In this document: in pieces, positions 24,338 to 45,237 of the stretch
How positions within the stretch are numbered: position 1 is the first letter of the stretch
How the letters are laid out: every line of letters starts with the position of its first letter
NCBI GenBank assembly: GCA_023381695.1
Contig: JAMCQP010000083.1
Location: 69,165-133,164, forward strand
Source: Bacillota bacterium
GTDB taxonomy: Bacteria; Bacillota; UBA5301; JAMCQP01
Direction of reading: 5' to 3'
Length of the DNA: 64,000 bases
Position numbers and translations under genes: made by a program
Notes under the pieces: model-generated
The model's database searches: none
Told to the model about the DNA's origin: nothing
The model's input: the letters and a program-made list of their open reading frames with translations, nothing else

Positions 24338-24853
24338 ATGAACCTGGCGGATCTTCTAACAAAAAAACAGGCGGTAATCCTGGAGAGATGGTTCCAGTGG
24401 TTTCTGGAGACGTATCCCGCGGAAACAGCCAGGTTTATGCGCGAGGAGAAGAACCGGTTTGCCAATCCGGTGGGATCTTCCGTCTACCAGGGAATAGAGG
24501 GCCTGTGCCAGGAACTCCTTCAGGGGATGGAACTGGACAGGGTGTATCCCCTCCTCGATCCCATCGTCAGGATCAGGGCTGTCCAGGATTTCCCCCCCTC
24601 CCGGGCGGTCGCTTTTATCTTTGCCTTGAAGAAAGTGATCTTCGAGGAACTGGAGAGTGAAATCCGGGGTGGCCAGATCTCCGTGGAAGAGTTGTTGGAG
24701 TTGGAGTCCAGGATAGATAATCTGGCGCTCCTCTCCTTTGACATCTACACGCAATGCCGGGAGAAGGTTTCCCAGATCAGAGTTGAGGAGATAAAAAGAA
24801 GGTCAGAGAGGCTTTTGCAAAGGGCAAATCTGGTTGTCGATCCGTCGGAGTAG
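24338..24853 (+). CDS. RsbRD_N domain protein at the head of the dsr operon
   Basis: A 171-aa all-helical protein: 'LADLLTKKQAVILERWFQWFLETYPAETARFMREEKNRFANPVG' and 'LDPIVRIRAVQDFPPSRAVAFIFALKKVIFEEL'. This pattern matches the N-terminal domain of RsbR-type proteins (RsbRD_N), a globin-like helical sensor fold, but with no STAS domain. Single-domain forms of this kind are known before dsrMKJOP in sulfate reducers. The role is unknown; sensing or assembly are possible. The ATG at 24338 follows a run of eight G. The track start 27 codons earlier lies inside the leader hairpin. dsrM begins 33 bases later. Confidence 0.8.
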   Translation: MNLADLLTKKQAVILERWFQWFLETYPAETARFMREEKNRFANPVGSSVYQGIEGLCQELLQGMELDRVYPLLDPIVRIRAVQDFPPSRAVAFIFALKKVIFEELESEIRGGQISVEELLELESRIDNLALLSFDIYTQCREKVSQIRVEEIKRRSERLLQRANLVVDPSE

Positions 24854-24885
24854 AAATCGCGGCAAAAGATGTGGAGGGATGAGGC

Positions 24886-25818
24886 TTGTCCTTCTTTTTC
24901 GGGGTGGTTGTACCTTACGCGGCTCTGATTACGTTCTTCGCCGGCCTGGTCTATCGCGTGGTGAAGTGGGCGCGCGCTCCCGTGCCGTTTCGCATCCCCA
25001 CGACCTGTGGCCAGCAGAAGTCTTTGCCGTGGATCAAGGCCAGTAAATTTGACAATCCTTCCAGCACAGCTGGTGTGGTGGGAAGGATCGCTCTGGAAGC
25101 GCTTCTTTTCCGTTCCCTGTTCAGGAACACCAGGGCCGAGAAGGTCTCTTGGCAAGGAGGCCCGAAACTGGCCTATCGCTGGGAAAAATGGCTCTGGCTG
25201 GCGGCGTTGTCCTTTCACTGGTCCTTCCTGATCATCTTCCTCAGGCATCTGCGCTTTTTCACCGCGCCCGTGCCTTCTCTGATCCGCCTGATTGACGGCG
25301 TCGACGGGTTTTTGCGGGTCGGGGCGCAGGGGCTCTTTATTACGGATGTCTTGATCCTGGTGGCCGTCACCTACCTTTTCCTGAGAAGAGTGGTTCTGCC
25401 TCAAGTGCGGTACATATCCCTTCCCTCCGACTACTTTCCGCCCTTGTTGATCCTTTCTCTGGCCCTTTCCGGGGTTCTGATGCGGTATTTCTTCAGGGTG
25501 GATGTGACCGCCGTTAAAGAGCTGGCCATGGGACTGGTTACCTTCCATCCAAAGGTGCCGGAGGGGATCGGCGTTCTCTTTTATATCCATTTGTTTCTCG
25601 TCGGCAGCCTGTTTGCCTGCTTTCCTTTCAGCAAGCTGGTGCACATGGCGGGGATCTTCCTTACCCCGACCAGAAACCTGCCCAACGACAGCCGGGCTAA
25701 CCGGCATATCGATCCCTGGGATTACCCGGTGAAGATCCATCCGTATGAGATGTACGAGCAGGAATTCGGCAAGAAGATGGCGGAAGCCGGATTGCCCGTC
25801 GAAAAGAGGTGGATGTAG
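24886..25818 (+). CDS. dsrM: DsrM, membrane cytochrome b subunit of DsrMKJOP
   Basis: A 310-aa NarI-like membrane protein with about six hydrophobic segments and several membrane histidines ('SFHWSFLIIFLRHLRFF', 'FYIHLFLVG', 'KLVHMAG') suited to two b hemes. It opens 'FFFGVVVPYAALITFFAGLVYRVVKWARAPVPFRIPTTCGQQ', the DsrM pattern. It would take electrons from menaquinol and pass them to DsrK on the cytosolic side. The start is TTG, eight bases after GGAGG. It nearly overlaps dsrK. A shorter paralogue lies eight kilobases downstream. Confidence 0.93.
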   Translation: MSFFFGVVVPYAALITFFAGLVYRVVKWARAPVPFRIPTTCGQQKSLPWIKASKFDNPSSTAGVVGRIALEALLFRSLFRNTRAEKVSWQGGPKLAYRWEKWLWLAALSFHWSFLIIFLRHLRFFTAPVPSLIRLIDGVDGFLRVGAQGLFITDVLILVAVTYLFLRRVVLPQVRYISLPSDYFPPLLILSLALSGVLMRYFFRVDVTAVKELAMGLVTFHPKVPEGIGVLFYIHLFLVGSLFACFPFSKLVHMAGIFLTPTRNLPNDSRANRHIDPWDYPVKIHPYEMYEQEFGKKMAEAGLPVEKRWM

Positions 25819-25820
25819 GG

Positions 25821-27437
25821 ATGGCGTCGCTTCCGAAACCGGATGAACTGGCGGGAATCAATTACAACCCCCCGCGCACCGGGTGGAGGGATACGCCTGT
25901 GGAGTTCAGGCGGGGCACCTATTGCTATGGCGCCAAGCCCAAAAACCTGGAAGCCGTCGGGCTTCCCAACCCCAGGGACTGGTCGCCGGAAGATCAGGAC
26001 TGGAAGCTGCCGGAAAACTGGAAGGAGATCATCCTGGAAGGGCTCAGAGAACGTCTGGGCAGGTTTCGTTCGTTGCAGATCTTTATGGATGCCTGTGTGC
26101 GTTGTGGGGCCTGCGCCGACAAATGCCACTTCTTCATCGGGTCGGGAGACCCCAGAAATATGCCCGTTCTGCGGGCCGAGCTTCTCAGGTCGGTATATCG
26201 CCGGGATTTCACCACCGCGGGAAAGATCTTCGGCAAGCTGGCCGGGGCACGGGATCTCACGGAGGAAGTGCTGAAGGAGTGGTACTACTACTTCTTTCAA
26301 TGCACCGAATGCCGCCGCTGTTCGGTCTTCTGCCCATTCGGCATCGATACGGCGGAGATCACGATCCTCGCCAGGGAGCTGCTCAACCTGGTGGGTTGCA
26401 ATATCGACTGGATCGCCGCTCCCGTGGCCAATTGCTACCGGACGGGGAACCACCTCGGCATCCAGCCCCACGCTTTCAAGGACATGATCGATTTTTGCAC
26501 GGAAGACATTGAGAAGGTGACCGGCGTTAAAGTCGAGCCCACCTTCAACCGGAAGGGCGCCGAAGTCCTTTTTATCACCCCTTCCGGGGATGTCTTCGCG
26601 GATCCGGGCACCTACACCCTGATGGGATACCTGATGCTCTTTCACGAGATCGGACTGGACTACACTTTCAGCACCTACGCCTCCGACGGTGGAAACTTCG
26701 GCCTCTTCACCTCCCATGAGATGATGAAAAGGCTCAACGCCAAGATGTACGCCGAGGCCGGAAGGCTGGGGGTAAAATGGATCCTGGGTGGCGAGTGCGG
26801 CCATATGTGGCGGGTTATTCACCAGTACATGGGCACCATGAACGGTCCCGCGGATTTCCTGGAGGAGCCGGTTTCCCCGATCACCGGCACCAGGTTCGAG
26901 CACGCCCGATCCACGAAGATGATCCATATCGCGGAGTTTACGGCGGATCTGATCCGGCACAACAAAGTGAAGCTGGACCCCGGCCGGAACAATCACCTGA
27001 AAGTCACCTTTCACGACCCCCGCAACACCTCCAGAGCCATGGGGCTCTTCGAAGAGCCGCGGTATGTCCTGCGTAGTGTCTGTAATCACTTTCGCGAGAT
27101 GCCGGAGAATACCATCCGGGAGCAGACATTCTGCTGCGGCAGCGGGGCCGGCCTGAACACGGACGAATACCTGGAGATGAGGTTGCGTGGGGGCTTTCCC
27201 AGGGCCAACGCGGTCAGGTACGTTCACGAGAAGTACGGGGTGAACACGGTGGCCTGTGTTTGCGCGATTGACAGGGCCGTGCTGCCTACCCTGATGGACT
27301 ACTGGGTTCCCGGGGTAGGGGTCGCCGGTTTGCACGAACTGGTGGGAAACGCCCTGGTGATGCAAGGAGAAAACGATCGGACGACGGATCTGCGCGGCAA
27401 CCCCTTGCACGGAAGGGAGGAAGGGGAGGATGTATAA
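25821..27437 (+). CDS. dsrK: DsrK, HdrD-like iron-sulfur subunit of DsrMKJOP
   Basis: A 538-aa cytosolic protein related to heterodisulfide reductase HdrD. Two ferredoxin-type clusters are visible, 'CVRCGACADKCHF' and 'CTECRRCSVFCPFGID'. The C-terminal region has 'FCCGSGAGLNTDEY' and 'VACVCAIDRA', where the special active cluster sits. DsrK is thought to reduce the trisulfide of DsrC. The first position of the CCG motif reads 'HDPRN', with Arg where the second copy downstream (dsrK2) has Cys in 'HDSC', and the last pair is CVC and not CxxC. The ATG at 25821 follows GAGGTGG and is preferred over the GTG at 25809. Confidence 0.93.
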   Translation: MASLPKPDELAGINYNPPRTGWRDTPVEFRRGTYCYGAKPKNLEAVGLPNPRDWSPEDQDWKLPENWKEIILEGLRERLGRFRSLQIFMDACVRCGACADKCHFFIGSGDPRNMPVLRAELLRSVYRRDFTTAGKIFGKLAGARDLTEEVLKEWYYYFFQCTECRRCSVFCPFGIDTAEITILARELLNLVGCNIDWIAAPVANCYRTGNHLGIQPHAFKDMIDFCTEDIEKVTGVKVEPTFNRKGAEVLFITPSGDVFADPGTYTLMGYLMLFHEIGLDYTFSTYASDGGNFGLFTSHEMMKRLNAKMYAEAGRLGVKWILGGECGHMWRVIHQYMGTMNGPADFLEEPVSPITGTRFEHARSTKMIHIAEFTADLIRHNKVKLDPGRNNHLKVTFHDPRNTSRAMGLFEEPRYVLRSVCNHFREMPENTIREQTFCCGSGAGLNTDEYLEMRLRGGFPRANAVRYVHEKYGVNTVACVCAIDRAVLPTLMDYWVPGVGVAGLHELVGNALVMQGENDRTTDLRGNPLHGREEGEDV

Positions 27438-27828
27438 CGCGCGCCCCGTAATCATCGGCCTGGCCGTCTTCATCGGGTTGACGACTTTCCCGATCTGGCG
27501 TGCCCTGGAAAAAGCCGCGCCCGCGCCGGAGCCAGAGCTTGACACGCCGGCCATCCAGCAAATGCCGGAAAAGTTGTGCGTGGAGGCCACGCCGACCATG
27601 CGGGCCCGCCATATGCAACTTCTCGGCGACTGGCGCGCCGGAGTTGTCAGGGACGGCCGCACCGTCTATGCCGGCCAGGCCGGAAAGAAGTATGAGATGA
27701 GCCTTCAGAAGACTTGCCTGAAATGCCATGCGAACAAGGACAAGTTTTGCGATCAATGCCATGACTATGCGGGAGTGCAGCCGGACTGCTGGACCTGCCA
27801 CATTGCTCCGGGGGAGAATAAGCCATGA
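27430..27828 (+). CDS. dsrJ: DsrJ, membrane-anchored triheme cytochrome c
   Basis: A 132-aa protein with an uncleaved N-terminal helix and three CxxCH heme sites at about 96 (CLKCH), 107 (CDQCH) and 120 (CWTCH). C50 in 'KLCVEATPTMRARHM' matches the conserved cysteine that is an axial heme ligand in Allochromatium DsrJ. It faces outward in the DsrMKJOP complex; its partner is not known. It overlaps the end of dsrK by eight bases and dsrO by four. A c-type cytochrome of this kind is unusual for Gram-positive dsr clusters, which typically carry only dsrMK. Confidence 0.95.
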   Translation: MYNARPVIIGLAVFIGLTTFPIWRALEKAAPAPEPELDTPAIQQMPEKLCVEATPTMRARHMQLLGDWRAGVVRDGRTVYAGQAGKKYEMSLQKTCLKCHANKDKFCDQCHDYAGVQPDCWTCHIAPGENKP

Positions 27829-28604
27829 AGATCAGCAGGAGAAGCTTTTTGAAGATGGGTGGAACTTTCGCCCTGGGGTTCACAGCCCTGCCGGGGTTGA
27901 AGGCGTTTGCGGCAAGCGGCCTGCTTAAGGCTTCGCCGGATCCGAAAGCCCTGGCGGGCAAAAAATGGGCCATGGCCATCAATATGAAGGTCTGCCGGGA
28001 GAAGGGGCCGGAAGGCTGCAAAGAGTGTGTCGTCGCCTGCCACCAGGTGCACAACGTGCCCGACATCGGCAACCCCAAGGAAGAGGTCAAGTGGATCTGG
28101 AAGGAGCCTTTTGCCAACGCATTTCCAGGGCAGGAACACGAGTACCTGGAGGAGACGGTGAAAGGCCAGCCTTTTCTCGTCCTCTGCAACCATTGCGACA
28201 ACCCCCCCTGCGTGAGGGTGTGCCCGACGCAGGCGACGTTTAAGCGCAAAGACGGGATCGTCGTGATGGACGACCACCGGTGCATCGGCTGCCGGTTCTG
28301 CATGGCCGCCTGCCCGTTCGGGGCAAGGAGCTTTAATTTCCGGGATCCCCGGCCCTATATCCCGAAGTTGAACCGGGAGTTTCCCACCAGGGAGAAAGGG
28401 GTCGTGGAAAAGTGCAATTTCTGCGTGGAAAGGCTCGCCGCCGGCCTGTCACCGGCGTGCGTGGAAGCGTGCCGCCACGGGGCGCTGGTCTTCGGCGACC
28501 TTGAGGATCCCAATGCGGGGATACGGGACGTGCTGAGCTCACGTTTCACGATCCGGCGCAAACCCGAACTTGGGACCCGGCCCAAGGTTTATTATGTGGT
28601 GTGA
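27825..28604 (+). CDS. dsrO: DsrO, Tat-exported four-cluster ferredoxin subunit
   Basis: A 259-aa protein with a twin-arginine signal ('RRSFLKMGG', then a hydrophobic stretch and 'AFA'). Four iron-sulfur sets follow: 'CKECVVACHQVH', 'CDNPPCVRVCP', 'CIGCRFCMAACPFGARSF' and 'CNFCVERLAAG..CVEAC'. It is the outer-face electron carrier that pairs with DsrP. The length matches the family. The gene overlaps both neighbours, so dsrJOP are tightly coupled. Confidence 0.95.
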   Translation: MKISRRSFLKMGGTFALGFTALPGLKAFAASGLLKASPDPKALAGKKWAMAINMKVCREKGPEGCKECVVACHQVHNVPDIGNPKEEVKWIWKEPFANAFPGQEHEYLEETVKGQPFLVLCNHCDNPPCVRVCPTQATFKRKDGIVVMDDHRCIGCRFCMAACPFGARSFNFRDPRPYIPKLNREFPTREKGVVEKCNFCVERLAAGLSPACVEACRHGALVFGDLEDPNAGIRDVLSSRFTIRRKPELGTRPKVYYVV

Positions 28605-28627
28605 GAAGCTCTGCGGGAGGGGTTGTG

Positions 28628-29821
28628 GTGCTTAAAAGGGCTCTCGGCGGAAGCCAGAGATACTGGAGCTGGATGTTTTTCCTGTTGGCGCTGGTGGGCA
28701 CAGGGCTTGCCTGCTATATCCGGCAGCTTGATCGGGGCCTGGCCATCACCGGCATGAGCCGGGACGTTTCCTGGGGCCTCTATATCGGCCAGTTCACCTT
28801 CCTGGTGGGGGTGGCCGCCTCGGCGGTGATGGTGGTTTTGCCGTATTACGTGCACCATGTCAAGGAGTTTGGCGGAATTACCATCTTTGGCGAGTTTCTG
28901 GCCGTGGCCGCGGTGCTCATGTCCTTGCTCTTCGTCATCGTGGACCTCGGCAAGCCCATGCGCCTCCTGAACCTCCTGCTCTATCCGACGCCCGGCTCGA
29001 TCATGTTCTGGGACATGATCGTCCTGACCGGATATCTCCTGCTGAATATCGTGATCGGATGGAACGTGCTTGAATCGGAACGTGAAGCGGTGCCGCCCCC
29101 GAAGTGGGTCAAACCGCTGATCTATCTTTCCGTTCCCTGGGCGGTCAGCATCCACACGGTCACGGCTTTTCTGTACGCCGGTCTCCCGGGCAGGCCGTAC
29201 TGGCTCACCGCCATCATGGCCGCCAGGTTTCTGGCCTCGGCGTTTGCTGCCGGCCCGGCGCTGCTCATCCTTTTGGGCCTGATCATCAGGAGGTCCAGCA
29301 ACTTTGCGCCAGGCGGGGACGTGATCCAGAAGCTCGCCAGAATTGTTGCCTACGCGATGATCATCAGCGTCTTCTTCGTGGGTCTGGAATTCTTCACCGC
29401 TTTCTACAGCCAGGTGCCCGGGCACATGCAGAGTCTTGAGTACCTCTTCGCCGGCCTGGACGGGCACCGGAACCTGGTTCCTTTCATGTGGATCTCTGCG
29501 GTGCTGGCGGTTACGGCGCTCGTCCTCCTGATCAATCCCGCCACGCGCGAGAACGAAAGGACCCTCCAGATAGCTTGCGCGGCCGTGTTCATCTCCCTGT
29601 GGCTTGAAAAGGGGCTCGGCCTGGTGGTGGGCGGTTTCATTCCCAGCGCGGTGGAAAGGGTGACCGACTATGCGCCGACCGTGCCCGAGCTGTTGATCGC
29701 CCTGGGAATCTGGGCTGCCGGTGGACTGTTGCTCACGATCCTTTACAAGATCGCCGTTTCCGTCAAGGAGGAAGAGCCCGGAATGGTGGAACTGGCGCAA
29801 AAACGAAGGGAAGTGGTGTAG
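28628..29821 (+). CDS. dsrP: DsrP, NrfD-type quinol-interacting membrane subunit
   Basis: A 397-aa protein with about ten membrane helices, starting 'LKRALGGSQRYWSWMFFLLALVGTGLACYIRQLDRGLAITGMSRDVSWGLYIGQFTFLVG', a clear NrfD/DsrP pattern. It exchanges electrons between the menaquinone pool and DsrO. The GTG at 28628 has GGGAGGGG just upstream. The track GTG at 28601 overlaps dsrO and lacks a good site. Its TAG stop overlaps the GTG of the ferredoxin gene. Confidence 0.93.
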   Translation: MLKRALGGSQRYWSWMFFLLALVGTGLACYIRQLDRGLAITGMSRDVSWGLYIGQFTFLVGVAASAVMVVLPYYVHHVKEFGGITIFGEFLAVAAVLMSLLFVIVDLGKPMRLLNLLLYPTPGSIMFWDMIVLTGYLLLNIVIGWNVLESEREAVPPPKWVKPLIYLSVPWAVSIHTVTAFLYAGLPGRPYWLTAIMAARFLASAFAAGPALLILLGLIIRRSSNFAPGGDVIQKLARIVAYAMIISVFFVGLEFFTAFYSQVPGHMQSLEYLFAGLDGHRNLVPFMWISAVLAVTALVLLINPATRENERTLQIACAAVFISLWLEKGLGLVVGGFIPSAVERVTDYAPTVPELLIALGIWAAGGLLLTILYKIAVSVKEEEPGMVELAQKRREVV

Positions 29822-30012
29822 TGTACCTGGTCGAGGTGAACCGTGAACTTTGCAGCGGTTGCGGGGAGTGCGTCGGCGCCTGCCCGGCGAAGCTCCTGGC
29901 TCTGGACGGCGAGAAGAAGAGTTTTGTGCAGGGAGATCCGGCGGAGTGCCTGGGATGTGAAAGCTGTACCATTCTCTGCACCAGGGGCGCCGTCAAGGTG
30001 ACCGAGTATTGA
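29821..30012 (+). CDS. Two-cluster [4Fe-4S] ferredoxin between dsrP and dsrA
   Basis: A 63-aa ferredoxin with two full CxxCxxCxxxC sets ('CSGCGECVGACP' and 'CLGCESCTILC'). It has no signal peptide and is cytosolic. It is coupled to dsrP by a one-base overlap, so it probably belongs to the Dsr electron route, perhaps as a donor to DsrAB. A ferredoxin gene is common in dsr clusters, but its partner has not been shown here. Confidence 0.88.
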   Translation: MYLVEVNRELCSGCGECVGACPAKLLALDGEKKSFVQGDPAECLGCESCTILCTRGAVKVTEY

Positions 30013-30019
30013 CCGGGGT

Positions 30020-30070
30020 GAAAAAGGAGGTGAGGTGGCCACCGGCTCATACAGGAGCCAGTAATCGAGT
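30020..30070 (+). other. Hairpins and possible nine-residue leader peptide before dsrA
   Basis: The 85-base gap holds AAAAAGGAGGTGAG followed by a GTG frame for 'MATGSYRSQ', then stop. GGTGGCCACC and GGCTC/GAGCC can fold within it. The small frame may only be chance; the hairpins could mark RNA processing between the dsrMKJOP part and dsrAB. Confidence 0.3.
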
Positions 30071-30097
30071 TGAATCTTTACCGGAGGTGAGTAGGTT

Positions 30098-31303
30098 ATG
30101 GCAATCAACAAGCACGAGATGCCGGACTCGGAGACCCCACGTCTTGACGAATTGGAAAAGGGTCCCTGGCCAAGCTTTGTCACCGAGATGCGGGAGGCTG
30201 CCGGGAAGAAACCGGCGGCCAGGGATCTGATGCGGCAACTGGAAAAATCGTATGGCGAGAAGGTTGGCCACTGGAAGCACGGCGGGATTGTGGGCGTTAA
30301 AGGATACGGGGGAGGGGTTATTGGCCGTTATTCGGATAGCCCCGAGGAGTTTCCCGGTGTTCGGGAATTTCATACTTTGCGTGTAAACCAGCCCAGCGGG
30401 TGGTTTTATACCAGCAAGGCCCTCCGGCAGCTCTGCGATGTCTGGGACAAGCACGGCTCCGGCCTTACCAACTTCCACGGGTCCACCGGGGACGTCATCC
30501 TTTTGGGCGCTCCCACGGGGAACCTCCAGGCTTGCTTTGATGATTTGAGCGACATCGGCTTCGACCTGGGCGGGTCGGGCGGGGACCTGCGTACGCCGAG
30601 CGCCTGCGTGGGCCCGGCGCGGTGCGAATTTGCCAACTTTGACACGCTGGACGCCTGCCAGAAGGTTACCATGGCCTTCCAGGATGAACTTCACCGCCCG
30701 CAGTGGCCGTACAAGTTCAAGGTCAAGATTTCGGGCTGCCCCAACGACTGCGTGGCCGCCCAGGCGCGGGCCGATTTCTCCCTGATTGGCACCTGGCGGG
30801 ATACCCTGCGCATTGACCAGGAGGCGGTGAAAGCTTACGCCGCCCAGGGGATGGACATCCGCGGGGAGGTCTGCGACCACTGCCCCACCAGGGCCCTGTC
30901 CTGGGATGACGCCCAAAAGCAGCTCAATCTGGTGGCGGAGGACTGCGTCCGGTGCATGCATTGCATCAACAAGATGCCCAGGGCCATCCGGCCGGGGGTG
31001 CAAAAGGGAGCCACGGTGCTCATCGGCGGCAAAGCCACCATCTTGCGGTCGGCCTTTCTTTCCTGGGTGCTGGTTCCCTTTATAAAGGTCGAGCCGCCGT
31101 ACACGGAATTGCTTGACCTGTTGCGGCGCATCACCGACTGGTGGGCGGATAACGCCAAGAGCAGGGAGCGGATCGGCGAACTCATCTACCGCGTCGGCAT
31201 GCGCACCTTCCTGGATGGCGTGGGCCTGCCGGCGGTGCCCCAGATGGTGAAGGAACCGCGGGCCAACCCGTATATCTTCTGGCGTTCCGAGGAGGTGAAA
31301 TAG
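30098..31303 (+). CDS. dsrA: Dissimilatory sulfite reductase alpha subunit
   Basis: A 401-aa protein. The siroheme/[4Fe-4S] cysteines appear as 'CVGPARC' (Cx5C) and 'SGCPNDC' (Cx3C). The inserted ferredoxin domain has 'CDHCPTRAL' and '[18 protein letters not shown]'. '[10 protein letters not shown]' and the nearby '[18 protein letters not shown]' are typical DsrA. With DsrB it makes the alpha2beta2 enzyme that reduces sulfite six electrons deep, handing sulfur to DsrC. GGAGGTGAG precedes the ATG. dsrB follows after one base. Confidence 0.96.
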
Positions 31304-31304
31304 C

Positions 31305-32363
31305 ATGCCCAAATTGGACTTCGGACCCCCTGACTTTCATGCCATGCTTCCCCCCGTCATCAAGCGCAACTACGGGCAATGGCGCTATCACGAAATCTTG
31401 AAACCGGGCTTGCTCAAACATGTGGCCGAAAGCGGTGAAGCTTTGTTTACCGTGCGCGCGGGCACGCCGCGGTTGCTGAACACCGATTCGGTGAGGCGCA
31501 TCGCCGATCTGGCCGACAAGTACTGCGACGGCTACGTACGCTTCACCAGCCGGCATAACCTGGAGTTTCTCATAAGCGACGAGTCCAGGGTGGAGCCGTT
31601 GCTGGCGGAGCTGAAGAAGTTCAACATCCCGGTGGGCGGCACCGGCAACTCCATGAGCAGCATCGTGCACACCCAGGGCTGGATCCACTGCCACACCCCG
31701 GCCACGGACGCTTCCGGCGTGGTGAAGGCGGTCATGGATGAACTCTTTCAACACTATACCCACATGGACCTGCCGGCCAAGCTGAAGGTGGCCATGGCCT
31801 GCTGCCTGAACATGTGCGGCGCCGTGCACTGCTCGGATATCGCCATACTGGGGGTGCATCGCACGCCGCCAAAGGTGGACCATGAGGCTCTGGCCAGGGG
31901 TTGCGAGGTGCCCACGGTGGTTGCCAGTTGTCCCACGGCGGCCCTCCGGCCGAATCCCAGGCTGAAGAGCGTGGACGTGGTGGAGGAACGCTGCATGTAC
32001 TGCGGCAACTGTTTCACCATGTGCCCGGCCATGAAGATCATGGACGGAGAGCACGACGGCATCTCCATCTGGGTGGGCGGCAAGGTGGGCAACGCCCGCA
32101 CGGCGCCCATGTTCTCCAAGCTGGCGATCCCCTTCCTGCCCAATAACCCGCCGCGCTGGCCGGAGGTGGTGGACGCGGTCAAAAACATCGTCGACGTCTG
32201 GGCCGCCCATGCCATAAAGGGCGAGCGCGTAGGGGAATGGATCAACCGGGTGGGCTGGGAACGGTTCTTTGAACTGACCGGCTTGCCGTTTACGGATAAG
32301 CATGTGGACGACTTCATCTTCTCTGTTCCCTCCTTCCGTTCCAGCACCCAGTTCAAGTGGTAG
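31305..32363 (+). CDS. dsrB: Dissimilatory sulfite reductase beta subunit
   Basis: A 352-aa protein with the catalytic siroheme cysteines in 'CCLNMCGAVHCSDIAI', the DsrB signature 'HTQGWIHCHTPATDASGVVKAVMDEL' and a ferredoxin insert 'ERCMYCGNCFTMCPAMKI'. DsrB carries the active siroheme site. The length is normal. A long hairpin and not dsrD follows. The reductive or oxidative type cannot be settled by eye, but the clostridial setting, full-length ferredoxin inserts and absence of dsrEFH favour the reductive direction. Confidence 0.96.
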   Translation: MPKLDFGPPDFHAMLPPVIKRNYGQWRYHEILKPGLLKHVAESGEALFTVRAGTPRLLNTDSVRRIADLADKYCDGYVRFTSRHNLEFLISDESRVEPLLAELKKFNIPVGGTGNSMSSIVHTQGWIHCHTPATDASGVVKAVMDELFQHYTHMDLPAKLKVAMACCLNMCGAVHCSDIAILGVHRTPPKVDHEALARGCEVPTVVASCPTAALRPNPRLKSVDVVEERCMYCGNCFTMCPAMKIMDGEHDGISIWVGGKVGNARTAPMFSKLAIPFLPNNPPRWPEVVDAVKNIVDVWAAHAIKGERVGEWINRVGWERFFELTGLPFTDKHVDDFIFSVPSFRSSTQFKW

Positions 32364-32382
32364 GGCAAAAGAGCGGCGTTTT

Positions 32383-32429
32383 TCCCGGGGATCTGCGGTC
32401 CGGCGGATGGGAACCACAGATCTCCGGGA
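32383..32429 (+). other. Long hairpin between dsrB and dsrC
   Basis: TCCCGGGGATCTGCGGT pairs with ACCACAGATCTCCGGGA: sixteen of seventeen positions pair, including one G-T, around a 13-base loop. No T-run follows, so it is not a normal terminator. It occupies the gap where dsrD is often found. A role in RNA processing or in protecting the dsrAB or dsrC message is likely. Confidence 0.8.
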
Positions 32430-32485
32430 TAACGGGAATGGAGCAAGGCGGGCTCAGGTACGATCTAAACGGAGGTGCTTCTGCG

Positions 32486-32803
32486 ATGTCTGAAATTAAT
32501 CTGGCCGGAGTTGCCGTGCAAATTGACGAGGACGGTTTCATTCAGGACACCGGCAAATGGAATGAGGCCGTGGCCAAGGCCCTGGCGGAAACGGAGGGGA
32601 TCACCGGATTATCCGAGGACCACTGGAAGATCATCAACTACCTGCGAAAATACTACCTGGAATTCGGGATTGCCCCGATGATCAGGAAACTCTGCAAGGA
32701 AACAGGCTATGACCTCAAGACCATCTATGAGTTGTTCCCGTCCGGACCGGCCAAGGGCGCCTGCAAGATCGCCGGTTTGCCCAAACCCACCGGGTGCGTC
32801 TAG
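32486..32803 (+). CDS. dsrC: DsrC, sulfur-carrying substrate protein of sulfite reduction
   Basis: A 105-aa protein ending 'GACKIAGLPKPTGCV' with both redox cysteines of true DsrC, C93 and the penultimate C104; TusE-type relatives have only the latter. DsrC takes the sulfur made by DsrAB as a trisulfide, which DsrK then reduces. The ATG at 32486 follows GGAGGTG at eight bases. The upstream part of the track ORF is the hairpin region. It is directly followed by the second dsrM-dsrK pair, suggesting that pair works on DsrC. Confidence 0.96.
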   Translation: MSEINLAGVAVQIDEDGFIQDTGKWNEAVAKALAETEGITGLSEDHWKIINYLRKYYLEFGIAPMIRKLCKETGYDLKTIYELFPSGPAKGACKIAGLPKPTGCV

Positions 32804-32826
32804 TATTGCGGCAGGGAGGGAGAAAG

Positions 32827-33489
32827 TTGGGACTGTGGTTTGTCATCGGAGGCATACTTCCCTATCTGGCACTTCTGGTGGGCGTGGGCGGCCTGATCAG
32901 CCGCATTTTGCGCTGGGCGCGCGCGCCGCAACACCTGCACTGGGAGCTCTTTCCCTACCCGTCCACCCCGGCGGGGCAGACGGGGGAACTCCTGGCGGAG
33001 GTCTTCACGCTCCGGAGTCTGTACAGCTACAACCTGCGGTTCTGGCTGCCATCTCTTACCATGCACTATGGAATCTATCTGGTGATCCTGTGGATGGGGC
33101 TATCCGCGCTGGGGGTGAGGGATACCGCCGTCGCGGGGGCGGCGGGAGGCGTGCTGGCGGTGGCGGGCGCCGCGGCCCTGGTGGTGATTCGTGCCGCCCG
33201 CAGGGAAACCCGGCAAATCACTGCTCCCGTGGAGTACCTGAATCTGGCCCTGGTCATGGCCATCGGCCTTTCCGGGTTGATTACCGGCTGGTTCCTTCAA
33301 CCGGAAGCTTTCCGGCGGTATGTGATCGGCCTGGCAAGCTTTTCTCCCGTGTTGCCGGCGGCGGAACAACTGGCGCCCATCCTGTTCCTGGAGGTGTTTC
33401 TGCTCTATCTTCCCTTCAGCCGGATGGCCCATTTTGCCGCCAAGTACTTTACCTATCACAAGGTGAAATGGGGGGAGATGGCCAGGTGA
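32827..33489 (+). CDS. Second, shorter DsrM-like cytochrome b subunit
   Basis: A 220-aa membrane protein with five or six hydrophobic segments, opening 'WFVIGGILPYLALLVGVGGLISRILRWARAPQHLHWELFPYP'. Histidines in 'TMHYGIYL' and 'RMAHFAAKYF' could bind heme. It resembles dsrM but is 90 residues shorter, near the size of HdrE/NarI-type subunits and of the DsrM found in two-gene dsrMK clusters of Gram-positive sulfate reducers. The TTG at 32827 has GGGAGGGAG upstream; the track start overlaps dsrC. Its stop overlaps the start of the paired dsrK-like gene. Confidence 0.88.
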   Translation: MGLWFVIGGILPYLALLVGVGGLISRILRWARAPQHLHWELFPYPSTPAGQTGELLAEVFTLRSLYSYNLRFWLPSLTMHYGIYLVILWMGLSALGVRDTAVAGAAGGVLAVAGAAALVVIRAARRETRQITAPVEYLNLALVMAIGLSGLITGWFLQPEAFRRYVIGLASFSPVLPAAEQLAPILFLEVFLLYLPFSRMAHFAAKYFTYHKVKWGEMAR

Positions 33490-35012
33490 GAAAGGTTTTT
33501 GACGATTACCGCGCTCTCTCCGATCAGGCGATCCAGGCCAGGTCCCCCCGGCGGGCGGCTTTTCTGGAGGCCATGGGGAAATCCCTGCGGTCCGGGGAAA
33601 ACCGGGCTTTCTGGCTGCCTTACGTGCTTTCCCTGGACATGTGCATGAAATGCGGGACCTGTGCCGAGGTTTGCCCACTGTATCTTTCCAGCGGGCGGAA
33701 CGCGCTGTACCACCCGGTTTACCGCTCCGACATGCTGCGCAAGGTCTACCGGCGGTACTTCACGCTGTCCGGGAAGCTTTTCCCCAAGGTGGTCGGGGCG
33801 GAGGATCTTACCGAGGAAAAGCTGGACGCCATGGCGGAGAACTTTTACCGGTGCACGGTGTGCCGCCGCTGCGCCTATGTGTGCCCGGTGGCCATTGATA
33901 ACGGCCTCCTGGCCCGGGAGGGAAGGAAGATCTTTGATGCCATCGGCATTGCACCTGATGAGCTGAAGGAGAAGGGCACCAGGTTGCAGCTGGAGGCGGG
34001 GAACGCCACCGGGGTAAAGACGCCGGCCTTTCGCGACATGGTGGAATTTATGGAAGAAGATCTTCAGGACACCCGGGGATACCAGGTGCAGATCCCCGTG
34101 GATAAAAAGGGCGCCGAGTATCTGGTGATGCATAATACCGGCGATTACCCGGCGTTTTCGGAAACCGTCATGGGGGCCGCGGAGATCTTTCAGGCCGCGG
34201 GCGCGGACTGGACCGTAAACTCCCCCGACACGGGGATTAACGATGTAGTCAACTACGGGGTCTTTTTCAGCGATACGGAGTTTGAAAAGGTGGCCCGGGC
34301 CCAGGTAAGGACAGTCCGGGAGCTGGGGGCAAGGGTCCTGGTGATCGGGGAGTGCGGACATGCCTTTGAGGCCATGAAATACCTCATCCAGAGGTTGATC
34401 CCTGCCGAGGAACGCCCCTTTGAGGTCAAGAGCATCCTGGAGGTCTATGATGAGTGGATCCGGGAAGGCCGAATCGAGCTCGACCCGGCCAAAAACCCCG
34501 AGCCGGTGGTCTATCACGATTCCTGCAAGGCGGGGCGCCTGGGAGGGTTGTACGAAGAGCCTCGGCGGATCTTGAAGAGCGCCTGTCTGGACCTCCGGGA
34601 GATGACGCCCAACCGGGAGCTGAGCTACTGCTGCGGCGGCGGCAGTGGGTTTGCCATCATGAGCAAGGGGGACTTCCTGAAGTTTCGCATGGAGACCTAC
34701 GGCAAGATCAAGGAAGAGCAGATCAGGCAGACGGGCGCCGGGGTGGTCGCCCTGGCCTGTTCCAACTGCAAGGGGCAGTTCCGCGATATCATCAATTATT
34801 ATCACCTGCCGGTGCGCATCGCCGGGATCAGCGAGCTGGTGGCCAATGCCCTGGTACGGGGGAGGGATAGGCGCAGTGAAGGGATTACGTTTGCCCAGGC
34901 TGGTGGTGGGAGCGCCGCACGGGAAGTCCGGGAAGACCACGATCACCGTGGGGTTGTTGCAAGCCCTGCGCGGGAGGGGGATCCCCGTCCAGGCTTTCAA
35001 GAAAGGGCCTGA
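33486..35012 (+). CDS. Second DsrK/HdrD-like iron-sulfur subunit, with a 137-base overlap into dsrN
   Basis: A 508-aa frame. Ferredoxin clusters 'CMKCGTCAEVCPLY' and 'CTVCRRCAYVCPVAID' are followed by a complete CCG set: 'YHDSCKAGR', 'SYCCGGGSG' and 'LACSNCKGQ'. This is fuller than in dsrK upstream. It starts at GTG inside the stop of the dsrM-like gene. The family part ends near 'ISELVANALVRG', at about 34860. The last 50 residues ('DRRSEGITFAQ...') lie over the start of dsrN in another frame and look unlike protein of this family. One extra G in the G-run near 34857-34861 would give a TAG at 34868. The earlier part of track ORF 32709-35012 is not coding. Confidence 0.87.
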   Translation: MRKVFDDYRALSDQAIQARSPRRAAFLEAMGKSLRSGENRAFWLPYVLSLDMCMKCGTCAEVCPLYLSSGRNALYHPVYRSDMLRKVYRRYFTLSGKLFPKVVGAEDLTEEKLDAMAENFYRCTVCRRCAYVCPVAIDNGLLAREGRKIFDAIGIAPDELKEKGTRLQLEAGNATGVKTPAFRDMVEFMEEDLQDTRGYQVQIPVDKKGAEYLVMHNTGDYPAFSETVMGAAEIFQAAGADWTVNSPDTGINDVVNYGVFFSDTEFEKVARAQVRTVRELGARVLVIGECGHAFEAMKYLIQRLIPAEERPFEVKSILEVYDEWIREGRIELDPAKNPEPVVYHDSCKAGRLGGLYEEPRRILKSACLDLREMTPNRELSYCCGGGSGFAIMSKGDFLKFRMETYGKIKEEQIRQTGAGVVALACSNCKGQFRDIINYYHLPVRIAGISELVANALVRGRDRRSEGITFAQAGGGSAAREVREDHDHRGVVASPAREGDPRPGFQERA

Positions 35013-36297
35013 CTATATCGACCCGTCCTGGCTCGAGCAGGCCAGTCTCCGGCCCTGCCATAACCTGGACTCTTTTCTGATGACGCCGCAATCCATTATC
35101 GGCTCGGTGGCACGGCACGCCAGGGGCATGGATCTGGCCCTGGTGGAAGGAAACATGGGCCTCTACGATGGTGCCGACCTGGAGGGCAGCGGCAGCACGG
35201 CCGAACTGGCCAGGATTATTCAGGCTCCGGTACTTCTGGTGGTGGACGCCACCAGGATCACCCGCAGCGTGGCGGCGGTGGTCATGGGCTTCCAGGTCTT
35301 CGACCCCGGCTTACACATCGGGGGCGTGATCCTGAACCGGGTGGCCCGTCCGCGGCACGAGGAGATGCTCCGGCAAAGCATCGAGAAATATTGCGGCATC
35401 CCGGTGCTGGGGGCGGTTCCCCGTTGCCCGGAGATGGTATTGCCCGACCGTCACCTGGGATTGTTGCCGCCCCAGGAGTGGGAGAGCGGCAGGGAATGGG
35501 TGGAAGGTGTGGGGCGGGTGATCTCCAGCCACGTGGATCTGGACGCTCTTTGGCGGCTGGCGGCCAGCGCCGCTCCTCTGGCGGTGCCGGAGGAGGGAGG
35601 GCCGCATCCAGCCGCTGCCCGGGAACATGTGGTCATCGGAGTATTCCGCGACCGGGCCTTCCACTTTTACTACCCGGAGAACCTCGAAGCTCTGGAACAT
35701 GCCGGCGCCCGCCTGGTGTTCATCGACTCCCTGGCGGACAAGGAACTGCCCCCCGTGGATGGGCTGTACATCGGTGGGGGATTTCCCGAGGTGATGGCCG
35801 CCGGGCTGGAGGCCAACGTTTCCTTGCGGCGGAGGGTACGGCGGGCGGCGGAATCTGGTCTTCCCGTCTACGCTGAATGTGGTGGGTTGATGTATCTGGG
35901 GCGCACCGTGGCCTGGCAAGGCAAGCAGTACAAGATGGCCGGAGCGCTGCCTCTGGATGTCGTCATGGAAGCCGGACCACAAGGCCACGGATACGTGGCG
36001 GCGGAGGTCGTTGAACCGAATCCCTTCTGGGCTCCCGGCCAGGTGGTGCGCGGCCACGAGTTTCATCACTCCCTGGTCCAGGGGCTGGATGAAACCAGGG
36101 TGAAACTCGCGTTGCGCATCATGCGGGGGCATGGACTCGATGGGCAAAGCGACGGGATCACCTATAAGAATGTGTTTGCCTCCTATCTTCACGTGCACGC
36201 CCTGGGAGAACCTTCGTGGGCGGAGGCGTTTGTCAGGGCGGCTTCCGAGGTAAAGGAGGTGAGTGAGGGAAAAAGCATGGCAAGGATGGAGGGTTAA
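34876..36297 (+). CDS. dsrN: DsrN, cobyrinate a,c-diamide synthase-like glutamine amidotransferase
   Basis: A 473-aa CbiA-type enzyme. The N-terminal P-loop is 'GAPHGKSGKTTITVGL', followed by 'KKGPDYIDPSWL'. The C-terminal class I amidotransferase domain has the nucleophile in 'PVYAECGGLMYLG' and a His/Glu region near 'GHEFHHS'. CbiA amidates cobyrinate. Next to dsrAB the family is called DsrN and is held to amidate siroheme to the siroheme amide of DsrAB. No other cobalamin genes are near, which favours DsrN. The GTG at 34876 follows GGGGGAGGG at eight bases. Confidence 0.9.
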   Translation: MKGLRLPRLVVGAPHGKSGKTTITVGLLQALRGRGIPVQAFKKGPDYIDPSWLEQASLRPCHNLDSFLMTPQSIIGSVARHARGMDLALVEGNMGLYDGADLEGSGSTAELARIIQAPVLLVVDATRITRSVAAVVMGFQVFDPGLHIGGVILNRVARPRHEEMLRQSIEKYCGIPVLGAVPRCPEMVLPDRHLGLLPPQEWESGREWVEGVGRVISSHVDLDALWRLAASAAPLAVPEEGGPHPAAAREHVVIGVFRDRAFHFYYPENLEALEHAGARLVFIDSLADKELPPVDGLYIGGGFPEVMAAGLEANVSLRRRVRRAAESGLPVYAECGGLMYLGRTVAWQGKQYKMAGALPLDVVMEAGPQGHGYVAAEVVEPNPFWAPGQVVRGHEFHHSLVQGLDETRVKLALRIMRGHGLDGQSDGITYKNVFASYLHVHALGEPSWAEAFVRAASEVKEVSEGKSMARMEG

Positions 36298-36337
36298 CCG
36301 CAGGCCAATTGAGCCAAAACCAAAAGGAGGGCTAAAC

Positions 36338-37678
36338 GTGAGTCAAACTAGCGTACAACCATCTGTAGCCCAGCCGGTCAAAAAGCGCAGCTGGCTCCTG
36401 ACCAGCGAGGACTGGTGGGCGGTTTACCTGGGACTGTTTCTATTAGTCTTAGCCTACGTCGCCTTTTCGCTCCAAGCGCCTCTGGACCTGATAAAAGGAG
36501 CGGTGCCGCAGGAATGGCCTCAGAACCCCTTGTTGCCCGGGTTGGCCAGCCATATCGGGAACTATGTCTTCGTTTACTTGTTGTTGCTGGTGTTGACCTC
36601 GATCGGGGTGCGGACGATGGGGGGCAAGTTGAGCCATTACATCGCCGGGTTCACCCTCCTGTTCATCGGGGGGCTGCTGATCCTGATCCTGGGGAGCCAG
36701 CAGACGATCAAGAAGTATGGGATGGAGTATCCTTTCTGGTCGCTGATCATCGGGTTGATCATCGGCAACCTGGGGAAGATGCCGGCCTGGTTCAAGGTAT
36801 CGGCGGGCCGCACCGAGTTCTACATCAAGATGGGCATTATCCTCCTGGGGGCCAACCTGCCGTTCACGGTCATCGTCACCGGCGGCGCGTGGGGGTTCCT
36901 GGAAGCGCTGATCATCGTGGCGGTTGGTTTCACGGTGGCGTTCGTGATCGCCAGGAGGCTTGGTTTTGACAACAAGTTTGCGGCGGTGCTGGGCGCCGGC
37001 GCATCGGTCTGCGGCGTGTCGGCCGCCATCGCCGTGGGCAGCAGCGTCAAGGCGAAGGAAAAAGATGTGGGTTACGTGATCTCCCTGGTGGTCCTCTACG
37101 CCCTGGTGCTGATCTTCCTGCTTCCCATTCTGGGCCGTGCCCTCGGCCTGAATCCGGTGGTTACCGGCGCCTGGATCGGCGGGTCGGAACTGGCGGATGC
37201 GGCGGGGTTGGCCGCGGCGGCCATGGTCGGCGAAAAGGCGGTGCAGGTCTTCTCCCTGGTGAAGCTGAACCGCGACGTGATGATTGCCTTCCTGGCCTTC
37301 ATCTTTGCCACGGTGTCCATCACCCGGTGGGAGAGAGGAGAGGGCGGAAAACGGCCCGGCGCCGTGGTGATCTGGGAGCGTTTCCCCAAGTTCGTCATTG
37401 CCTTCGTGCTCGCCTCCATCTTCGCCACCTACCTGGTGGTGCAGTTTACCAAGCCGGTGGTCGACGCGCACATCATCGGGGTGATGAACGCCCTGCGCAC
37501 CTGGTTGTTTACCATCACTTTCCTGTGCATCGGGCTGAACACCAAGATCACCGACGTTCGCGCCATGGGCAGCAAACCCATTATCGCCTTTACCACCGTG
37601 GTGGTGGTGAACGTGATCGTGGGCTTTATTCTGGCCAACCTGTTCTTCGGCGGGATCATCGCCTCGCCGTTGAAGTAG
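36338..37678 (+). CDS. YeiH family (UPF0324) putative sulfur-oxyanion transporter
   Basis: A 446-aa protein with ten or more membrane segments and the family core 'FYIKMGIILLGANLPFT', 'GAGASVCGVSAAIAVG' and 'LCIGLNTKITDVRAMGSKPIIAF'. The family (Cons_hypoth698) is often labelled putative sulfate exporter from its link to sulfonate-degrading genes. Here it is coupled to dsrN by a 40-base gap, so export or uptake of sulfite, sulfide or sulfate for the Dsr route is a fair inference, not shown. The GTG at 36338 with AGGAGGG six bases before is preferred over the track start, which overlaps dsrN. Confidence 0.87.
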   Translation: MSQTSVQPSVAQPVKKRSWLLTSEDWWAVYLGLFLLVLAYVAFSLQAPLDLIKGAVPQEWPQNPLLPGLASHIGNYVFVYLLLLVLTSIGVRTMGGKLSHYIAGFTLLFIGGLLILILGSQQTIKKYGMEYPFWSLIIGLIIGNLGKMPAWFKVSAGRTEFYIKMGIILLGANLPFTVIVTGGAWGFLEALIIVAVGFTVAFVIARRLGFDNKFAAVLGAGASVCGVSAAIAVGSSVKAKEKDVGYVISLVVLYALVLIFLLPILGRALGLNPVVTGAWIGGSELADAAGLAAAAMVGEKAVQVFSLVKLNRDVMIAFLAFIFATVSITRWERGEGGKRPGAVVIWERFPKFVIAFVLASIFATYLVVQFTKPVVDAHIIGVMNALRTWLFTITFLCIGLNTKITDVRAMGSKPIIAFTTVVVVNVIVGFILANLFFGGIIASPLK

Positions 37679-38789: not shown

Positions 38790-39719
38790 TTAATATCTCG
38801 AATCCAGCGCGTCCCGGAGCCCGTCGCCCAGGAAGTTGTAAGCCAAGACGACCAGGGTGACTCCCATTCCCGGGAGAACTGCCAACATGGGAGCCGTCCA
38901 GACATACTGTTGCGCATTTTGGAGCATGTTCCCCCAACTTGGCGTGGGAGGCTGAATGCCGAGACCAAGGTAACTGATGGCGCTCTCCGTCAGGATGGAC
39001 CAGGCGATACCCAGGGTGGCCGAAACGATGACCGAGGGGTACGTCTGGGGCAGGATATGCCGAACGAGGGTCCTAAACGGTGACGCACCCGTGGCCACCG
39101 AGGCTTCGACAAACTCGTAAGCCTTCCACTTGAGGGTTTCGCCGTACACCACCCGGGCCACCTGCATCCAGGAGGAAAAGCCGATCACCAGTACCACCAT
39201 GAGTGGGCTTTTGCCCAGGACGGTGAGGGCTACCAGGACAAAAAAGAGGTTCGGAATGGCCATCATAGCGTCGGTCAGGCGCATCAAGAGGACATCGGTC
39301 ACGCCCCCGAAAAAGGCGGCGCTGGTGCCAATGATGACGCCAAGGATGACCGAGAAAGCCATGGAGGCGAACCCTACGGCCAACGTTACCCGCCCGCCGT
39401 AAAGCATCCGGCTCAACTCGTCCCGGCCGAGATCATCGACACCCAGTGGGTGGGTCAAACTCCAGCCGGACAGGGCAACGGCGGGGTTCATGCTCTCCGG
39501 CGGAACCCTCCAAAACAGTGGACCGGCGAAGACGATGAGGTGGAGCAGGATCAGGAAACAGAGCGACACAAAAGCCAGTTTATTCTTACCCAGCCTAGCC
39601 AATACTCCGCGTCGGGTGGAACCACCTGGAATTGGCCCGTAACCTTCTCCACCTGGCCTAACGATTTCGAGTTGCCCTTCGCTCAGCACCTCGAAGGCGG
39701 TTTCGATTGACTGTGTCAT
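38790..39719 (-). CDS. Peptide ABC transporter permease, OppC/DppC type
   Basis: A 309-aa membrane protein with an N-terminal OppC_N segment ('LARLGKNKLAFVSLCFLILLHLIVFAGPLF') and a binding-protein-dependent transport domain ('HPLGVDDLGRDELSRMLYGGRVTLAVGFAS'). The EAA loop is in 'EFVEASVATGASPFRTLVRHILPQ'. It pairs with the OppB-type protein encoded just upstream. It is the last gene of the leftward unit. No ATPase gene follows it. Confidence 0.92.
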   Translation of the reverse strand: MTQSIETAFEVLSEGQLEIVRPGGEGYGPIPGGSTRRGVLARLGKNKLAFVSLCFLILLHLIVFAGPLFWRVPPESMNPAVALSGWSLTHPLGVDDLGRDELSRMLYGGRVTLAVGFASMAFSVILGVIIGTSAAFFGGVTDVLLMRLTDAMMAIPNLFFVLVALTVLGKSPLMVVLVIGFSSWMQVARVVYGETLKWKAYEFVEASVATGASPFRTLVRHILPQTYPSVIVSATLGIAWSILTESAISYLGLGIQPPTPSWGNMLQNAQQYVWTAPMLAVLPGMGVTLVVLAYNFLGDGLRDALDSRY

Positions 39720-39730
39720 ACTGCCCTCCC

Positions 39731-40714
39731 TCAGGTCATCCGGATCCGGGGATCGATCCGGGAGTAGACCACATCAACCAAGAGGTTAGTCAAGACGACG
39801 ATGATGGTCACTACCACGGTCACGCCCATCGCCAGCGGATAGTCGCGTCCGTTGGCGGATTCTACCACCAGTTGGCCCATTCCCGGCCAGCCAAAGACCG
39901 CTTCGGTGATCACGGCTCCTCCCATCAGTCGGGGGACCATCACGCCGATCATCGAGACTACCGGGATCAAAGCGTTGCGCAGTGCATGCCGGTAAATAAC
40001 TCCCAATCCGGAAACCCCTTTGGCCCGGGCCGTGCGTACGAAGTCTTGAAAGATCACCTCGAGCATGGCCGAACGTGTGAAACGCACGATGTTGGGCAAG
40101 GTGGTGGTCGACAGGACCAAAACGGGCATGATCAGATGAGAAACCCGGTCCGCCAGGTCGAAACCGTTACCTCCGGCTGCTATCCCGGATGAAGGCAGCC
40201 AATGGAGGTTGACAGAAAACAGGAGGATCAGCATGATCCCCAGCCAAAACGCCGGCACTGAGAGGCCTACCACGCTTAAGAATCCGGCCGCGTAATCCAG
40301 AAGGCTGTTGCGGTGCACAGCCGAGACGACGCCAAGGACAATTCCGGCGGTCACGGAAACGATCATCGTGCAAAGGGTGAGAAGTGCCGTGAAGGGGAAC
40401 CGCTCGGCGATCCGCTTGACGACCGGCTGACTGGTCGCAAGGGAAGTGCCCAGGTTCCCGGTAACGGCCCCGGCCAACCATTGGACATATCTGACGGCCA
40501 CCGGCTTGTCTAACCCCATCCGGGCCAAAATAGCCTCCCGTTCGGCTTGAGTGGCTTCTATTCTCATCACCGCGGACGGGCCACCCGGGGCCAGGTTGAC
40601 TAGAAAGAAAGTAATTAACGTGACGATCAGGATAACGATCAGGCTCTGGGCCAGCCGTTGGACGACGAAGCGAAGAATAGCTACCCCCTCCTTTGCGATG
40701 GTTTCAGGATACAT
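39731..40714 (-). CDS. Peptide ABC transporter permease, OppB/DppB type
   Basis: A 327-aa frame with six membrane segments and the OppB pattern 'VQRLAQSLIVILIVTLITFFLVNLAPGGP', with an EAA loop in 'DFVRTARAKGVSGLGVIYRHALRNALIPV'. The track start (ATG 40714) begins two bases after the oppA-like stop. A perfect AAAGGAGG lies inside the frame and points, at eight bases, to an ATT codon at 40678, whose product 'LRFVVQRLAQSL' matches the usual OppB start. AUU initiation is rare, so the start stays open. Confidence 0.9.
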   Translation of the reverse strand: MYPETIAKEGVAILRFVVQRLAQSLIVILIVTLITFFLVNLAPGGPSAVMRIEATQAEREAILARMGLDKPVAVRYVQWLAGAVTGNLGTSLATSQPVVKRIAERFPFTALLTLCTMIVSVTAGIVLGVVSAVHRNSLLDYAAGFLSVVGLSVPAFWLGIMLILLFSVNLHWLPSSGIAAGGNGFDLADRVSHLIMPVLVLSTTTLPNIVRFTRSAMLEVIFQDFVRTARAKGVSGLGVIYRHALRNALIPVVSMIGVMVPRLMGGAVITEAVFGWPGMGQLVVESANGRDYPLAMGVTVVVTIIVVLTNLLVDVVYSRIDPRIRMT

Positions 40715-40716
40715 CC

Positions 40717-42387: not shown

Positions 42388-42447
42388 GAGTGATCTTCCT
42401 CCTTGATTAGGCGGCTTGAGTTTCTTTATCAGGTCATGGCCCTTTAC

Positions 42448-43653: not shown

Positions 43654-43757
43654 TGATGCAGCCTCCTTGTTCAAATCACGTTTGGATTTATAATCAGGTT
43701 CGCCCGGAATTCAGCAGATCCCACCTGGATCAGCTCCCGGGGCTGGGTGTTCTTTCA

Positions 43758-44246
43758 TCACGATGCTCCTTTGGCCTGGGCTTCTTCCTCAACCGGCAGC
43801 CCCCAGTCATAGGACTGCTTCAAGAGCCGAAGAAGTAAAGAAGTGCGAGTTTCCAAAATCCCCTGTACCTTGGGCAATTCATCCAGCAGGAATCGCGACA
43901 GCTCTTCGTTATTGGCCCAGTAACCTTCGATGACCAGGTCATTGTCCCCGGTGGTTAAGGCTGCGTAACGCACCTCCTTTAGCCGGCAAACCGCCTCAGC
44001 CACCTCGAGCACCCGACCCCGGTCCACTTTGAGGCCGATAATGGCCGGGCTGTTGAAGCCAATGGCTTGCGGATTGGCCACCGCTGCCACCTTGATAATC
44101 CCTTCGCCGAATAATCGGGCCAGTTTCCGCCGGACCGTTCCCTCCGTCACCCCGATGGCCTGGGCGATGTCGACGATGGACATCCGGCCATCTTTCTGGA
44201 GCAGGAGCAGGATCTGTCGTTCATGCTTGTCCAGTGATACTGCCAT
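43758..44246 (-). CDS. Lrp/AsnC family transcriptional regulator
   Basis: A 162-aa protein with an N-terminal helix-turn-helix ('LDKHERQILLLLQKDGRMSIVDIAQAIGVTEGTVRRKLARL') and a C-terminal RAM ligand-binding domain. It should sense amino acids. The ATG at 44246 follows AAGGGGGGG; the track ORF adds 59 residues of no family likeness. It lies within the peptide-use genes in the same direction and probably controls them. Confidence 0.9.
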   Translation of the reverse strand: MAVSLDKHERQILLLLQKDGRMSIVDIAQAIGVTEGTVRRKLARLFGEGIIKVAAVANPQAIGFNSPAIIGLKVDRGRVLEVAEAVCRLKEVRYAALTTGDNDLVIEGYWANNEELSRFLLDELPKVQGILETRTSLLLRLLKQSYDWGLPVEEEAQAKGAS

Positions 44247-44328
44247 TTTGATACCCCCCCTTTTTATGACCCGTTGGCTTCCAGCACAGGCCTTATGCCA
44301 CGGTCCTTGGCAGCCCCAGTAACCGACA

Positions 44329-45171: not shown

Positions 45172-45237
45172 TGGCGATCCCTCCGAGGTTCAACATCATG
45201 AGAGTTGATCCGGCCGGGCCGGCTCCCTCATGGCAAA

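Follow-up and report, generated by a model that had tools for sequence, protein, structure and literature searches.

Gene content of the locus

We analyzed a 64,000-nucleotide stretch of DNA (the window) from the genome of a Bacillota bacterium (G000), which is 3.76 Mb in 122 contigs, 89.6% complete and, in our comparison set, the sole genome of its order and one of seven of its class. The genes between positions 24338 and 37678 are as follows.

24338-24853, + strand: RsbRD_N-domain gene (PF14361, 4.3e-20); adjoins dsrMKJOP in nearly all relatives examined
24886-25818, + strand: dsrM (M1), DsrMKJOP type (NF038037, 508.9 bits; four NarI-like heme histidines)
25809-27437, + strand: dsrK (K1), DsrMKJOP clade (NF045796, 741.9 bits; tree; cysteine columns)
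27430-27828, + strand: dsrJ (NF038038, 165.1 bits; three CxxCH motifs)
27825-28604, + strand: dsrO (NF045797, 318.1 bits)
28601-29821, + strand: dsrP (NF045798, 483.7 bits)
29821-30012, + strand: small 4Fe-4S dicluster ferredoxin, fdxD-like (PF12838, 1.1e-9); adjoins dsrA in most relatives
30098-31303, + strand: dsrA (73-74% identity to class and phylum relatives)
31305-32363, + strand: dsrB (sequence and gene maps)
32486-32803, + strand: dsrC (PF04358, 5.6e-38; both C-terminal cysteines present, GACKIAGLPKPTGCV)
32827-33489, + strand: dsrM2 (M2), NarI-family cytochrome b without His66/His187 equivalents; an earlier GTG start is possible at 32794
33486-35012, + strand: dsrK2 (K2), type A; similar to its family up to about 34868, then a 44-48 aa extension
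34846-36297, + strand: dsrN, CobB/CbiA-type glutamine amidotransferase (PF07685, 5.2e-38; PF01656, 4.3e-19); the true start is perhaps GTG 34876
36263-37678, + strand: YeiH-family (PF03601) putative sulfur-anion transporter; homologs with 70-71% identity lie beside type A M2K2 in two genomes

The gene order claimed in an earlier note on this DNA, from dsrM-K-J-O-P through the ferredoxin and dsrA-B-C to dsrM2-K2 and dsrN, was borne out, with the RsbRD and YeiH genes at its two ends. The gene set was present as claimed, with minor corrections to its boundaries: 24338-24853 is the RsbRD_N gene, so dsrM starts at 24886, and dsrN ends at 36297, as 36263-37678 belongs to the transporter. The five subunits of a full DsrMKJOP complex, which the note had also named, are contiguous (24886-29821) and all score above the NCBIfam equivalog cut-offs. 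The separate second pair that it described is recognizably DsrM/DsrK-like (32827-35012) and falls below those cut-offs, K2 with 329.6 of 400 bits and M2 with 58 of 300 bits. Most neighbors overlap or touch, in agreement with the close spacing noted earlier; the widest spaces measure about 122 bp, between dsrB and dsrC, and 85 bp, between the ferredoxin gene and dsrA. This arrangement is far beyond chance, and the gene spacing suggests that the dsr cluster is carried on one transcript. Scanning for promoters and terminators gave nothing usable, only two promoter-like matches, both on the minus strand and fewer than in shuffled sequences. dsrA and dsrAB are single copy in the assembly.

The dsrK2 frame has no stop at the point where its relatives end and continues for 44-48 extra codons (34868-35012), so that it shares about 167 bp with the beginning of dsrN, read in a different frame. 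Past the dsr cluster, the minus strand at 38790-53572 holds oligopeptide-type ABC transporter genes, M19/M20/M24 peptidases and a chemotaxis receptor, a set that suggests the use of peptides.

The ATP sulfurylase gene (sat) was present in G000, and no AprA above the curated cut-off was found in this roughly 90% complete genome, the best match scoring 450.5 bits against 641.75; because of this, sulfate reduction is only one possibility here, sulfite or thiosulfate reduction being as likely. An AprA-like protein (450 bits) lies at a contig end (L143:10353-12170, on G000:C18). It is perhaps assimilatory, and the small protein encoded before it is one that we take to resemble the YezD family.

DsrK lineages and the occurrence of double sets

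To place K1 and K2 we built a tree of 79 proteins, DsrK and its relatives; the positions of three long-branch rows (L119, L017 and L130) in it are unsure. K1 fell in a clade of 34 DsrMKJOP-type proteins and K2 in a clade of 18 proteins that we call type A, each with full (100%) bootstrap support (100/99 for type A). The results show that neither pair arose by recent duplication of the other and that, as had been claimed, two different DsrMK types are encoded together. They are old, separate lineages, and their cofactor ligands differ too. Type A comprises genomes of families f18, f37, f42 and f112 plus two Archaeoglobus; f18 includes a Thermanaeromonas MAG (G165 in our phylum sample) and, we infer, Moorella. 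K2 shares 72-76% identity with the type A DsrK of Moorella/Thermanaeromonas-type clusters and 59% with the type A protein of Archaeoglobus JdFR-32/UBA234. The sister of type A is group D (DsrK of about 540 aa), to which Syntrophomonas zehnderi and one copy of D. ruminis belong. Searching by sequence for solved DsrK structures returned none with K1 and only a distant iron-sulfur reductase with K2.

We considered whether the second pair is the classic clostridial dsrMK. This identification was rejected because the DsrK that adjoins dsrC in D. ruminis (genome G204 in the sample) lies in group F1, apart from K2 and joining the DsrMKJOP side, the latter with weak support (88/47); the second pair is instead of the Moorellaceae/Archaeoglobus type. 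The classic pair of Desulfotomaculum ruminis (Desru_3734-3736, PMC3569383) resembles that of the window in adjoining dsrC without JOP, but it differs in its clade and in a DsrM that has all four heme histidines.

Next, we analyzed how common the double set is. The phylum sample held 399 genomes, 54 of them with dsrA. DsrK proteins were scored with profiles of two superclades and assigned by bit-score classes, superclade I being the DsrMKJOP type plus F1 and superclade II (the second clade) being A, D or F2; labels of genomes whose loci were not fetched thus reflect scores and not the tree, and the D-type call in G122 reflects a gene split over two contigs. Superclade I DsrK was present in all 54 dsrA genomes (35 DsrMKJOP-type, 19 F1), and superclade II DsrK in 46, namely in 35/35 genomes with DsrMKJOP vs. 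11/19 with F1 (Fisher p 7e-5, uncorrected for relatedness; the co-occurrence is confounded by shared ancestry). Counted by family, the second-clade protein accompanied DsrMKJOP in 11/11 and F1 in 5/10. The premise that Gram-positive members typically carry dsrMK only did not hold, given that 35 of the 54 dsrA genomes had a DsrMKJOP-type DsrK and every one of these a second-clade DsrK as well. The double set is thus no rarity and no novelty; in the sampled phylum, pairing is the rule.

In 20 genomes one contig carries both K1 and K2, at most 20 kb apart in 14 of them; the 7.7 kb of the window is the third shortest distance. Mixed dsr clusters were many among the fetched loci and their module order varies freely, for example M2-K2-fd-A-B-C-RsbRD-K1-J-O-P-M1-N in G084, M2-K2 followed about 4 kb on by YeiH-fd-A-B-C-RsbRD-M1-K1-J-O-P-N in G115, and fd-A-B-C-RsbRD-M1-K1-J-O-P-M(D)-K(D) in G079. 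A member of the same class, G001 (L101/L102), has the order fd-dsrA-B-M-K-C-M-K-N and so again a double DsrMK set, here an F1 pair and an F2 pair; the F2 protein scores higher with HmcF/TmcB than with DsrK.

As to whether the same double arrangement was already known, which the note had named as an outcome against its idea, it has largely been described (PMC6372793, PMC3949148, PMC6018796). The Desulfosporosinus MAG SbF1 carries DsrMKJOP together with fdxD and dsrM2K2 (PMC6372793) and thus resembles the window in having a Firmicutes dsr set with DsrMKJOP, a ferredoxin gene and a second DsrMK. Genomes of family f8, probably relatives of Desulfosporosinus and Desulfitobacterium, differ from the window in that their second pair is of the D type (DsrK of about 540 aa, only His66 missing in DsrM). 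In A. fulgidus, DsrMKJOP (AF0499-0503) and DsrMK(K) (AF0543-0545) are both constitutively expressed (PMC3949148); AF0543-0545 would be type A. Archaeoglobus JdFR-32/UBA234 resembles the window in carrying DsrMKJOP and a second DsrMK within about 10 kb, but it is archaeal and its dsrC and dsrAB lie on the other strand. Paralogs of dsrMK upstream of dsrAB are 'not uncommon' (PMC6018796), and some Deltaproteobacteria carry both DsrMK and DsrMKJOP, according to a large comparative study (PMC10504309).

The clusters closest in content are those of the Moorella/Thermanaeromonas type, which like the window combine DsrMKJOP with a type A DsrMK beside dsrC, dsrN and YeiH; type A M2K2 also lies beside dsrAB in Moorellaceae-type genomes. 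Unlike in the window, a distance of 11-50 kb separates the two sets, or they lie on separate contigs. Six Moorellaceae-type loci (L076, L082, L083, L093, L096 and L097) continue past type A M2K2-dsrC with a DsrC-like gene and another, distant dsrAB, and this early-branching dsrAB is absent from G000. Moorella-type genomes also encode another DsrK/HdrD-like protein elsewhere (G213:C9, G371:C1, G019:C1, G261:C1, G102:C1, G308:C30 and G237:C1); it has 411-473 aa and scores about 506-527 bits against the profile of superclade II.

Heme histidines and cluster cysteines

The DsrM profile was aligned to E. coli NarI (1q16 chain C), and residue positions were read directly from this alignment. Four DsrM histidines map onto NarI His56, His66, His187 and His205. 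In NarI, the distal heme, close to the quinol site, has His66 and His187 as its ligands, and the proximal heme has His56 and His205; PDB entry 1y5l is the NarI H66Y mutant. M1 has all four histidines (residues 111, 121, 235 and 253 of the open frame), as do 33 of the 34 DsrMKJOP-type DsrM and the F1-type partners; rows labelled 'F2' in this count stand for four F1 partners and for two relatives from the class that have no dsrA. In type A DsrM, that of the window included, the His56 and His205 positions were kept and His66 and His187 were absent in 17/17 readable rows, and one truncated copy showed the same pattern at its readable positions. D-type DsrM lacked His66 alone (13/13). Five 'upstream membrane proteins' that had first been picked as J-type DsrM were discarded, as they belong to another family that the DsrM profile does not retrieve.

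M2 shares family (PF02665) and fold with the two-heme NarI/HdrE-type cytochromes b, but its distal heme ligands are absent. We modelled M2 from four sequences (mean pLDDT 75.8). The model shows five long helices, and NarI chains were the best matches to its fold, with a weak E of about 0.02. The ligand pattern suggests that type A DsrM probably holds one heme b, the distal heme being lost, and that the distal quinol site may be lost with it. The apparent heme loss in the second version in turn points to a different energy yield. DsrM heme histidines have been described as highly conserved (PMC10504309), and the type A pattern departs from that statement. Full-text searching of part of the literature returned no report of a one-heme DsrM, and an earlier description is possible.

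K2 carries the five cysteines of an HdrB/HdrD-type CCG site (C-CC-CxxC), and DsrMKJOP-type DsrK has Asp in place of the last of them. At a different position of the CCG site, Cys425 of K1 (ORF numbering) reads Arg, the codon being CGC at 27021-27023 and the residue the fourth of the motif HDPRN. Cysteine occupies this position in the 33 other DsrMKJOP-type rows and in all A, D and F rows. The alignment shows that the change is private to this assembly, and we rejected it as a general trait of DsrMKJOP-type DsrK. The residue next to it is changed from Ser to Pro, again only here and in a column that is otherwise invariant, and conservation elsewhere in the operon looks normal; the Arg codon is possibly a base or assembly error. 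If K1 has truly lost a cluster cysteine, the 'coupled' DsrMKJOP route would be altered in this organism.

Possible readings of the two DsrMK complexes

Our preferred reading, to which we give a probability of roughly 45%, is that the cluster encodes two parallel menaquinol-DsrC oxidoreductases, DsrMKJOP probably being energy-coupled and DsrM2K2 probably electroneutral. This reading draws on the gene content, the two DsrK clades and their co-occurrence in the sample, the missing histidines of type A DsrM, and the constitutive expression of both sets in A. fulgidus. The full DsrABC sulfite-reduction system would be served by two distinct membrane complexes. DsrMKJOP would couple menaquinol, or periplasmic electrons entering via DsrJ, to the reduction of DsrC trisulfide with charge separation. 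For DsrM2K2 we infer one heme, the side of the quinol, electroneutrality and the division of labor: it would exchange electrons between menaquinol and DsrC via one heme located at the cytoplasmic face of the membrane and, because of that location, would conserve no energy. With both routes acting on the same DsrC pool, the cell could trade energy yield against driving force, or reduce DsrC when DsrMKJOP is limiting. The substrate of K2 might differ, as K2 scores below the NCBIfam DsrK cut-off. The broader proposal that the second DsrMK is a separate functional class of DsrC oxidoreductase, with a DsrM lacking the distal heme, and is needed wherever DsrMKJOP is used, is tentative and in our view rather doubtful.

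A merger of operon types is possible because DsrAB and the two DsrK modules have different nearest relatives. DsrAB groups with G001 and the Thermanaeromonas group, MKJOP has a loose affinity to family f37, and K2 falls with genomes of f37 and f42, these module placements being moderately supported; module order, moreover, is free to vary between genomes. That a DsrMKJOP module joined a Moorellaceae-type fd-dsrABC-dsrM2K2-dsrN module, leaving two largely redundant reductases, nevertheless seems unlikely to us, since neither the retention of a second-clade DsrK in every DsrMKJOP genome nor the consistent loss of the same heme ligand fits redundancy.

DsrM2K2 and the neighboring ferredoxin could instead donate electrons to the siroheme of DsrAB, leaving DsrMKJOP alone to reduce the DsrC trisulfide. 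This would agree with the ferredoxin gene directly upstream of dsrA in most clusters, with the gene order of the Thermanaeromonas MAG and two related genomes, where type A M2K2 immediately follows dsrAB, and with DsrMKJOP never occurring without a second-clade DsrK in the sample. We consider it rather unlikely, however, because K2 carries the full CCG thiol/disulfide site, needless for a plain electron donor, and because eight genomes with a simple DsrMK and dsrA have no second-clade DsrK. Less probable still is that DsrM2K2 is mainly oxidative, or acts on another DsrC-like protein or small disulfide, for instance with the Moorella-type DsrC-like protein and early-branching DsrAB; the Moorellaceae-type order described above would suit such a role, but the window genome keeps M2K2 with one dsrAB and one dsrC in the cluster. 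A recent duplication of dsrMK within this genome, which two copies in one cluster might suggest, is refuted by the DsrK tree, K1 and K2 being only 36% identical and each closer to proteins of other genomes than to one another.

What the locus adds is mainly one more lineage, itself sparsely sampled, to a pairing already known. The readings bear on how the reduction of DsrC trisulfide conserves energy and on the donors that feed it. If the broader proposal is true, such sulfite reducers would operate two DsrC reductases side by side, one energy-coupled and the other uncoupled, and if the second DsrMK is a one-heme, uncoupled enzyme that accompanies DsrMKJOP throughout this phylum, models in which DsrMK is a truncated DsrMKJOP would be wrong for these organisms.
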